61,364 bases of DNA, taken from positions 1-61,364 of the forward strand of contig CAIRCM010000200.1 of the NCBI GenBank assembly GCA_903877125.1, given 5' to 3'. The notes below the pieces were generated by a model. The model did not search any database, was not told the origin of the DNA, and saw nothing but the letters and a program-made list of their open reading frames with translations. Of the stretch, positions 52,331 through 54,312 are shown one piece after another; position 1 is the stretch's first letter; every line of letters starts with the position of its first letter. The position numbers and the translations under genes were made by a program. The stretch is from an uncultured Acetobacteraceae bacterium (GTDB taxonomy: Bacteria > Pseudomonadota > Alphaproteobacteria > Acetobacterales > Acetobacteraceae).

Positions 52331-52492
52331 CCATTGCCCATCCTCCTCGGCAGGCTGGGATACAGGCCCCTCCCGCAATGACGACCGTCGCTCGGGCGGG
52401 CGGTTGAGCCAGTTGCGCCGTCTGTTGACCAACGAGGTCGAATCCCAGCACGGCCGCATCCTGGTCAGGTTGTTTCAGGACCTCAACGCCAT
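52331..52492 (+). pseudogene. remnant of a TIR gene, partial copy of the downstream TIR protein
   Basis: Bases 52374-52492 align without gaps to 52752-52870 inside the TIR gene, with about 13 mismatches in 119 bp (RSGGRLSQLRRLLTNE, FQDLNA). The sequence before it (52331 onward, CCATTGCCCAT...) also matches the region before the intact TIR gene (52653 onward), so the upstream sequence was copied too, but about 50 bp holding the start codon are missing. The homology ends abruptly near the palindrome at 52512. Not functional. Confidence 0.82.
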
Positions 52493-52511
52493 GCACCGGC
52501 CTGCCACCCCT

Positions 52512-52540
52512 CGTCATCCCGGCGCATGCCGGGACCCACG
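52512..52540. repeat. REP-like palindrome, left copy
   Basis: The 29-nt sequence CGTCATCCCGGCGCATGCCG plus GGACCCACG is identical to 54284-54312. The core CCCGGC-GCAT-GCCGGG folds as a hairpin. The two copies lie on either side of the TIR gene, in the same orientation. Confidence 0.8.
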
Positions 52541-52709: not shown

Positions 52710-54149
52710 ATGTCCGACGTCCTGCCCCCCATCGGTTTCTGGAGCTATGCCCGCGATGACGACCGCCGCTCCGGCGGCCGCCTGAGCCAATTGCGCCGCC
52801 TGTTGACCAACGAGATCGAATCCCAGCACGGCCGCATCAAGGTCACGCTGTTTCAGGACCTCAACGCCATCGACTACGGCGAGCTATGGCAATCCAAGAT
52901 CGAGGAAGCATTGGCCCAATGCTCCTTCCTGATCCCCATCCTCACCCCCGGCTTCTTTCAAAGCGAATGGTGCTGCCGCGAAGTTCTTTTCTTTCTCGAA
53001 CGCGAGAAGCAGCTTGGCCGAGGCAGCCTGATATTCCCGATCTCCTGGGTGAAAACCGACCCCGAGGACGCCGCGCACGCCTGGTCGCGGGATGTCTGGG
53101 ACCATATGCTCAAGGTCCAGACGGTGTGCCTGACCCCCTGGCGACATTACCCGCTCGACAGCACGCTGGACGTTCTGTCGCGGCTGTCCGATCTCGCGGG
53201 GACGATCAAGGCGGCGTTGCGCCGGCCCGTACGGTCGCTGCCGCCGGCCCCCATCGTCCCGCCGCCACCTCCCCCGCCCCCTCAGGAGCCGCCGCGTCCG
53301 GTATCTGCACCTGCGCGGCCTCGGCCCATCGTCGCCCCACCTCCCCCGCCACCGCCACCGCCGAAACCCGCCTGGGCCTCGGCGATCGGCACCGACCAGT
53401 TCGGCGACTGGGCCGACATCGCCGTGCCCGCCGCGAACGGGAAAATCGTCACCCAGCGGCTGCGGGCGATCCCCTCGGGCAAGTTCCGCATGGGCTCGCC
53501 GGACACCGAGGAAGGCCGGTTCGGCGACGAAGGTCCGGTGCACGAGGTCGCTATAAGTCAGGGCTTCTGGCTGTTCGACACCCCCTGCACCCAGGAACTC
53601 TGGCAAGGCGTCATGGGCAAGAACCCGAGTATGTTCAAAGGCCCGAAGCGCCCGGTCGAAAAGGTGAATATCGCCGACATCGCCGAATTTCTGACCGCGC
53701 TCGACGGCCTTATGCCGGGACTCGGCTTGACGCTGCCGTCGGAGGCGCAATGGGAATATGCCTGTCGCGCCGGCACGTCCGGTCCCAACTACGCCAAGCC
53801 CGGCCAGTCCCTGGGCGACATCGCCTGGTACACCGAAAACAGCGGCGGAACGACCCACGATGTGAAGGGCAAGGCCCCGAACGACTGGGGCCTCTACGAC
53901 ATGCTCGGCAATGTCTGGGAATGGTGCGCCGACGGCTGGGTCGACAATTACAAGGGCGCCCCGACCGACGGCTCCGCCCGCCCAGCGGACGGCCCGGCAG
54001 ACCGGGCGTTCCGCGGCGGGTCCTGGTTCGTCGGCGCGCGGAGCGTGCGAGCGGCGTGCCGCGACGACGGCGATCCGTCCTACCCGAACGACTACCTCGG
54101 CTTTCGCAGCCTCGGCTTTCGCTGCGCCCGAGTTCGGAACAGCGACTAG
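52710..54149 (+). CDS. TIR domain plus formylglycine-enzyme/C-lectin-like fold protein, possible DGR target
   Basis: Protein of 479 aa. Residues 1-165 are a TIR domain with SYARDD and SEWCCREVLFF; Glu-91 fits the NADase catalytic residue. A polyproline linker (about 175-225) leads to an FGE-sulfatase fold (about 236-477): FRMGSPDTEEGRFGDEGPVH, LTLPSEAQWEYACRAGTS, YDMLGNVWEWCADGW and RGGSWFVGARSVRAACR. The cysteine pair of true FGE is absent, so this is a binding domain, not an enzyme. The end resembles a DGR variable repeat. Likely role: sensing a ligand and triggering NAD+ loss or signalling, possibly in phage defence; inference. Confidence 0.85.
   Translation: MSDVLPPIGFWSYARDDDRRSGGRLSQLRRLLTNEIESQHGRIKVTLFQDLNAIDYGELWQSKIEEALAQCSFLIPILTPGFFQSEWCCREVLFFLEREKQLGRGSLIFPISWVKTDPEDAAHAWSRDVWDHMLKVQTVCLTPWRHYPLDSTLDVLSRLSDLAGTIKAALRRPVRSLPPAPIVPPPPPPPPQEPPRPVSAPARPRPIVAPPPPPPPPPKPAWASAIGTDQFGDWADIAVPAANGKIVTQRLRAIPSGKFRMGSPDTEEGRFGDEGPVHEVAISQGFWLFDTPCTQELWQGVMGKNPSMFKGPKRPVEKVNIADIAEFLTALDGLMPGLGLTLPSEAQWEYACRAGTSGPNYAKPGQSLGDIAWYTENSGGTTHDVKGKAPNDWGLYDMLGNVWEWCADGWVDNYKGAPTDGSARPADGPADRAFRGGSWFVGARSVRAACRDDGDPSYPNDYLGFRSLGFRCARVRNSD
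54015..54122 (+). other. candidate variable repeat of a diversity-generating-retroelement target
   Basis: In the segment following GGSW (Trp-439), residues 440-442, 445, 450, 452-454, 457-458 and 460-462 sit where DGR targets of the GGSWNNNARNxRxANR type vary. Their 13 codons (TTC GTC GGC AGC TGC GAC; GAC GGC TCC TAC AAC GAC; TAC) all end in C, as expected if AAC codons were mutated at A. The invariant codons between them end in all four bases. CCTCGGCTTTCGC is repeated at 54095-54107 and 54110-54122. No template repeat was found in the window. Confidence 0.45.
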
Positions 54150-54283: not shown

Positions 54284-54312
54284 CGTCATCCCGGCGCATG
54301 CCGGGACCCACG
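54284..54312. repeat. REP-like palindrome, right copy
   Basis: Identical over 29 nt to 52512-52540 and in the same orientation, with the hairpin core CCCGGC-GCAT-GCCGGG. The rest of the 409-bp gap between the TIR gene and the amidohydrolase shows nothing else I can assign. Confidence 0.8.

Follow-up and report, generated by a model that had tools for sequence, protein, structure and literature searches.

Does the FGE-type domain of a TIR protein end in a variable repeat (VR) of a diversity-generating retroelement (DGR) and, if so, where are the template repeat (TR) and the reverse transcriptase (RT) that wrote it? The question is raised by a gene on a 61,364-nt stretch of DNA from an uncultured Acetobacteraceae bacterium (hereafter the window), which an original prediction, made from the letters of the sequence, had taken for a remote DGR target.

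Architecture of the TIR–FGE protein

The features of the locus are collected in Table 1. A Pfam search of the window protein returned TIR_2 at residues 41–119 (35.5 bits; cut-off 28) and FGE-sulfatase at residues 254–466 (131.4 bits; cut-off 23.3), and no NTPase domain anywhere in the 479 residues. The AlphaFold2 model has a mean pLDDT of 89.7 and a pTM of 0.61, with block means of 51–82 in the linker region (residues 171–220). The TIR fold was matched in the structure comparison of this model, TIR relatives ranking low in the list because the FGE domain fills it. We take E91 to occupy the place of the catalytic glutamate of TIR NADases; its column holds Glu in 43 of 57 aligned rows, some of which are FGE-only proteins.

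In catalytic formylglycine-generating enzymes, two active-site cysteines stand between GGS and the RxxxR motif. This pair is missing in the window protein, which reads FVGARSV at that place, and among the motif columns only that of residue 450 holds more than five cysteines (10 of 58 rows). The nearest PDB sequence to the FGE domain is the DGR variable protein TvpA (2y3c), which is also the joint-nearest fold in the structure search of the model. The inferred VR lies within the FGE fold near the 3′ end of the gene and stops 17 nt short of the end of the ORF, and the 15-bp duplication is missing at the protein level in the two closest homologues of the window protein.

Table 1. Features of the TIR–FGE locus (positions in the window)
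Feature	Position	Strand	Basis or remark
TIR–FGE gene	52710–54149	+	479-aa ORF; profile matches, AlphaFold2 model
N-terminal TIR domain	52725–53225	+	E91 within SEWCCRE
Proline-rich linker	53226–53372	+	sequence; lower model confidence
FGE / C-type-lectin-fold domain	53469–54107	+	
Variable repeat (span inferred: RGGSW through the 16-nt end)	54012–54132	+	comparison with congener VRs
Stretch with 13 variable (x) codons	54027–54095	+	codon analysis
Variable codon blocks	54027–54035, 54042–54044, 54057–54059, 54063–54071, 54078–54083, 54087–54095	+	
15-bp tandem duplication with one difference	54096–54125 (54096–54110 / 54111–54125)	+	directly after the last x codon
Putative homing (IMH-like) 16-mer TTTCGCTGCGCCCGAG	54117–54132	+	encodes F R C A R, with one further base
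Shortened second copy of the TIR start, without FGE	52371–52493	+	query residues 14–54, 85% identical

Variable positions and the 16-nt end of the repeat

The motif GGSW-3x-AR-x-VRAA-x-R-3x-DP-2x-P-3x-LGFR was located at 54015–54107. The claim that all 13 x codons end in C, with mixed third bases in the codons between them, was confirmed: the x codons are TTC, GTC, GGC, AGC, TGC, GAC, GAC, GGC, TCC, TAC, AAC, GAC and TAC (13/13), and of the remaining 19 codons of the RGGSW–LGFR stretch 7 end in C, with 8.4 expected. When the encoded residues and the codon preferences of 10 neighbouring genes (3571 codons) are taken into account, the all-C set has P = 0.0017, codon P values of this kind being somewhat generous because the positions were chosen after they had been seen. 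Sliding this 13-position spacing along those 10 genes gave an all-C set at 1 of 3261 offsets, and along the window gene at 1 of 448, namely the motif itself.

The tests in relatives are independent of the window gene's own codons. In 120 homologues among the matches listed (of 7905 matching), mean entropy is 3.33 bits at the 12 alignable x positions and 1.45 bits at 187 other FGE positions (P 6e-8). The residues without any NNC codon (K, Q, E, M and W) are scarce at x in the same set, making up 48 of 1407 residues there and 4449 of 22138 at other positions, a bias that AAC-like template codons would produce. Pairwise comparison of the window protein with P0002, P0003, P0004 and P0007 gave differences at 8/12, 11/12, 9/12 and 10/12 x positions and at 35/228, 36/227, 82/228 and 86/225 positions of the remaining FGE domain, respectively (Fisher 1.7e-4, 6e-8, 0.009 and 0.003). 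The exact motif spacing of the window recurs at 42 sites in the genus, 35 of them in long frames or TIR genes. At these 35, 346 of 455 x codons end in C (258.6 expected) as do 315 of 665 frame codons (307.6 expected); the expectation applies the window's codon use to all species, VR subtypes are mixed and x may not correspond exactly. Nearly all the comparative tests mark this segment as a DGR variable repeat.

At the DNA level the end of the repeat is nearly fixed. In 27 aligned GFRC ends, one of which is the TR of genome G027, the codons TTT, CGC and CGA are each found in 27/27 and GCC in 26/26, one sequence having Val in its place; the fifth codon is TGC in 14 and TGT in 13. Third bases are thus invariant in four of the five codons. 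Across 82 conserved columns the mean third-base diversity is 0.44, and no column besides these four is at zero. The 16-mer TTTCGCTGCGCCCGAG (last base A or G) occurs in 32 copies in 14 of 33 genus genomes, the reversed control in 2, and 30 of the 32 copies sit at VR or TR ends. The exceptions are G023:C87 and G010:C96, the latter with stops in its translation. Tagged VRs were found in 13 genomes, and a TR of this type in two only (G009 and G027). Nearly fixed and shared with TRs of the type, the 16-mer is the putative homing site of the VR. A BPP-1-like hairpin after the VR is described for phage DGRs in the consulted part of PMC3240598. Within 60 nt after the window VR there is no stem of at least 6, and such stems follow 4 of 28 VRs and TRs, with 2.18 expected; the hairpin, not being enriched with matched VRs included, is no mark of this group.

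VR frames also evolve in concert. Over 21 pairs within genomes, synonymous identity averages 0.92 in the frame and 0.56 in the remainder of these domains; over 296 pairs between genomes the two values are 0.67 and 0.51. In G021, an assembly 99% complete in about 90 contigs, it reaches 1.00: four VRs on three contigs have 0 of 51 frame bases variable, and of 25 variable sites within x codons 23 fall at codon positions 1 and 2. G010 is an exception to the pattern (0.43 in the frame, 0.46 in the rest), and the difference is small in G008 (0.71/0.65), in one G027 pair (0.82/0.72) and in G024 (0.87/0.72). The homogeneity within genomes is explained by a shared template acting in trans; such a template was not found in the assemblies of G021 and G032.

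Templates, writers and remote targets

The source assembly comprises 5,154,967 bases in 231 contigs and is 97.94% complete, the window being C200:1-61364. A genome-wide search for a DGR RT, Avd and template repeats, as the original prediction had proposed, found all three. Contig C39 carries, in this order, a TIR–FGE target (TIR_2 55.1 bits, FGE 185.5), Avd (NF033474 108.7 bits, cut-off 80; PF22296 also above cut-off), an RT (RVT_1 match at C39:24312) and a TR, which differs from its own VR at 14 sites over 120 bp, all at TR adenines (chance 3e-11). This DGR is canonical, and of another subtype than the window VR. A second pair consists of a TR near the start of C41 and a VR near the end of C143, with 13/13 differences at adenines over 114 bp; the two contigs face each other at their ends, so that a contig break splits the pair. 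Its RT was not found in the assembly, presumably because the assembly breaks there. C41 (L148 1–28) opens, some 150 bp ahead of the TR, with a G run followed by a C run, likely an assembly artefact or hard-to-read DNA beside the DGR. C26 and C52 carry further TIR–FGE genes whose ends resemble VRs, and the genome holds one VR of the window's type.

A template for that VR would have AAC-like codons in the GGSW…LGFR frame and the 3′ end TTTCGCTGYGCCCGAR. BLAST, a 60-nt pattern that left the x bases free and tolerated at most 3 mismatches, and template-like 40-aa queries found none in the 5.15-Mb, 231-contig assembly, so the predicted template repeat matching 54010–54122 was not borne out there. 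The only templates seen, the TRs of C39 and C41, were rejected for the window VR, from which they differ at 38 and 54 non-adenine sites out of 120. Even the closest of the sites compared as templates departs from the window VR at 24/120 non-adenine sites in an ungapped alignment, a figure partly owed to the duplication. An RT of the type found in G009 and on contig L262 (see below) is likewise missing from the source assembly, in which the one RT found, that of C39, shares no more than 35% identity with the RT of the DGR type that has the window's VR end. The absence of a cognate TR makes a DGR target somewhat less likely but is weak evidence, because contigs break beside or inside the DGR RT both here and in G007.

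Among the 33 genus genomes the C39 RT finds matches at 1e-15 in 10, several of them distant RTs, and Avd exceeds its cut-off in 5. Remote targets are found in congeners. In G031 a single TR on C16 fits three VRs on three contigs with 0 non-adenine differences over 117–123 bp: its local VR and two remote TIR–FGE targets, on C29 (17 adenine differences over 123 bp) and C28 (14 over 117 bp). One TR in G009 fits two VRs with 0 non-adenine differences over 129 bp. The G027 TR differs from a TIR–FGE gene on another contig, the top-scoring relative of the window protein in one of the searches, at 14 adenines and 3 other sites over 121 bp, and from a second remote gene at 14 and 4; it does not fit the neighbouring gene (21 and 14) or two further tagged VRs (17 and 16, 21 and 13). 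The proposal that the window gene is a remote target is thus upheld in part, since TIR–FGE genes are such targets in G031 and, with 3 non-adenine changes, in G027; the part of it that calls for a cognate TR is not. As to what had been named as speaking against the prediction, no cognate TR was found in the assembly, and variability at x is clearly far above that of the rest. The five tagged VRs of G027 (L187–L191) form two frame sub-families, two of them being near the assembled TR, which suggests a second, unseen template.

Several congeners show what are probably decaying DGRs. Avd matches below the cut-off occur at G021:C12, G021:C5, G006:C70 and G032:C30, the last with a stop, and no close DGR RT was found in these three genomes (G006 gave two weak matches; the match at G032:C99 was left out of account). 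The RT match of G027 is split into two pieces in different open frames. At G021:C46 (L264) a TIR–FGE gene is followed by an RT gene, which was rejected as the missing writer, its RVT_1 score and its sequence reading, by eye, as a group II-type maturase; the RVT_1 match at G032:C314 reads, again by eye, as group II-type.

A search with the 16-mer led to two IMG/VR contigs, L262 and L263 (4.6 and 4.5 kb; viral by database label), which are identical over 4523 bp, VRs included. L262 encodes an RT (RVT_1 44.6 bits, cut-off 29.6) that is 64% identical to the G009 RT, and a TR with three VRs in FGE genes, at 9–12 adenine and 0–1 non-adenine differences over 106 bp. The translated TR equals the window at 18 of 19 frame residues from RGGSW to LGFR, the 16-mer is exact, and non-adenine differences between this TR and the window VR number 10 of 84. 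L262 carries a complete metagenome DGR of the window's type. RTs of named phages (93 matching records) and plasmids (132), all below 60% identity, were discarded as candidates for the missing writer. A protein-pattern scan of viral contigs gave no RT relative, a weak result as the scan missed the L262 RT (64% identical), and a second pattern had no match on these contigs. FGE TR/VR pairs are present in 12 of 80 named loci of the genome_contigs collection and the exact 16-mer in 1, so that FGE targets are widespread and the 16-mer looks largely group-specific.

Past and continuing rewriting, and relation to known systems

In our judgement, which is not a computed value, the window gene is very probably a TIR–FGE sensor whose VR was written in trans by a DGR, as in congeners, and we have equally little doubt that this VR was rewritten in the past. 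For continued rewriting of this particular copy the chances appear even. The intact x codons and 16-mer, the open frame, the DGRs in the genome and the assembly break at a DGR point to a live copy. Pointing away from it are the missing TR, the duplication beside the 16-mer, a Pro codon in the frame where the G009, G027 and L262 templates have Arg, and the single sequence: the identical window protein on 5 contigs, which may not be independent, amounts to one sequence with no VR variant recorded.

The VR might therefore be a frozen relic, written by a DGR since lost, in a TIR sensor now of fixed specificity. This reading, which is nested in our preferred one and denies current rewriting only, falls just short of an even chance. 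It accounts for the failure to find a TR and a matching RT in the assembly, and it is in line with the decay of DGRs in the genus (sub-threshold Avd in G021, G006 and G032; the G027 RT in pieces). The duplication and the change from Arg to Pro count in its favour as well, because homing should erase both unless the template has them. There is also a precedent: in Treponema denticola, where TvpA belongs to a system with remote targets, some isolates retain targets without RT or TR, according to the accessible part of PMC4891356. However, all x codons of the window gene still end in C, its frame is open and its 16-mer intact, and the contig breaks at DGR RTs here and in G007 could hide a writer. 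Moreover, G021 has four VRs without a single variable frame base although RT and TR were not found there, and a missing TR is thus not the same as long-dead homing.

Far less can be said for an ordinary FGE-fold protein, with loops varying under selection, C-ending codons owed to a GC-rich genome and no DGR, which we regard as very improbable. GGSW, RxxxR and GFR are general conservation of the FGE family, visible in the 2y3c alignment, and neighbouring genes use C more often than any other third base (in 1520 of 3581 codons, counting stops). Yet the codon pattern remains significant after correction for codon use, residues lacking an NNC codon are scarce at x, the rare codons TTT and CGA are fixed after the VR, the L262 TR is near-identical in its frame and the nearest PDB sequence is TvpA. 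That FGE paralogues exchanged tracts by gene conversion or recombination, instead of being altered by mutagenic reverse transcription, is hardly credible: such exchange too could homogenize frame bases within genomes, but shuffled paralogue tracts would not spare third positions, the identical G021 frames differ at x almost wholly at codon positions 1 and 2, and actual TRs explain the same picture in G009, G031 and L262.

We accordingly favour, with considerable confidence, a compact TIR–FGE sensor-effector with a trans-written VR. The TIR domain would serve as the alarm output, probably NAD-consuming or nucleotide-signalling, and the proline-rich linker would tie it to the FGE-type C-lectin domain. 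A mutagenic reverse transcriptase would copy a template repeat located at another site, with random changes at adenines, and the resulting cDNA would take the place of the VR, anchored at its 16-nt end; one template may serve several scattered sensor genes. Binding of a ligand, from a phage or another invader, to the diversified face would then activate the TIR domain, which would be compatible with a part in defence against phages. TIR NADase effectors such as SPARTA act in defence; unlike SPARTA, the window protein has neither Argonaute nor APAZ, its recognition part being a DGR-type lectin domain.

Remote or orphan DGR targets and DGR-diversified conflict sensors have already been published, to go by the available parts of PMC7517822, PMC4891356, PMC10907252 and PMC7159879. 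Remote variable proteins of cyanobacteria are described in passages of PMC7517822 as having a C-terminal C-lectin domain, a VR away from RT and TR and dispersed paralogues, with TIR-like domains among the less common ones. The window protein resembles them in these respects; it differs from what is given there in its taxon and in the direct TIR–FGE fusion, and its group differs in the G031 remote matches without non-adenine change (117–123 bp) and in the near-fixed 16-nt VR end in 13 of 33 genomes. Thiohalocapsa PB-PSB1 has DGR-diversified putative antigen sensors in putative conflict systems (PMC10907252, as far as its accessible text goes), sharing with our case an FGE/CLec VR domain, several DGRs per genome and TIR among the effector domains. 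Those are ternary systems with STAND NTPase or MoxR/VMAP, whereas here sensor and TIR are joined in one 479-aa protein. The T. denticola TvpA match differs in having no TIR domain and in its host group.

In the portions of the open-access literature consulted, neither a direct TIR–FGE fusion named as a DGR target nor a fixed VR-end tag across species was found, and open-access searches returned no paper joining DGR with Acetobacteraceae, or DGR with TIR_2 and FGE-sulfatase. Remote DGR variable proteins are known, then, and what is new is the compact TIR–FGE fusion and the dispersed battery with a conserved VR-end tag. The purpose of cellular DGRs is for the most part unsettled. The antigen-sensor idea could hardly take a simpler form than a single protein that joins a TIR effector to a DGR-written binding face, and one gene suffices for testing it. 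The near-fixed VR end, in turn, offers a handle on remote or orphan targets overlooked by RT-centred surveys; the survey of PMC8144416 itself states, in the part available, that its approach would miss remote targets. It also raises the question of whether the 16-nt tag alone is enough to attract homing.

More tentatively, and as a possibility we would not yet back, one error-prone template might rewrite a dispersed battery of TIR–FGE and other FGE genes in trans throughout the genus, via the fixed 16-nt tag, as a stock of TIR alarms prepared in advance. Writer and targets would be partly separable, RT and TR being lost, gained or borne by elements that assemble poorly, and genomes would keep tagged, rewritable sensors even without a resident writer, the window gene among them.

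The surroundings of the gene hold two further features. The shortened TIR start, which lies a short way upstream of the intact gene, is by its sequence apparently the remnant of a second TIR gene. In addition, a 25-bp palindrome-like repeat, TCATCCCGGCGCATGCCGGGACCCA, flanks the TIR–FGE gene on the same strand at 52514–52538 and 54286–54310.
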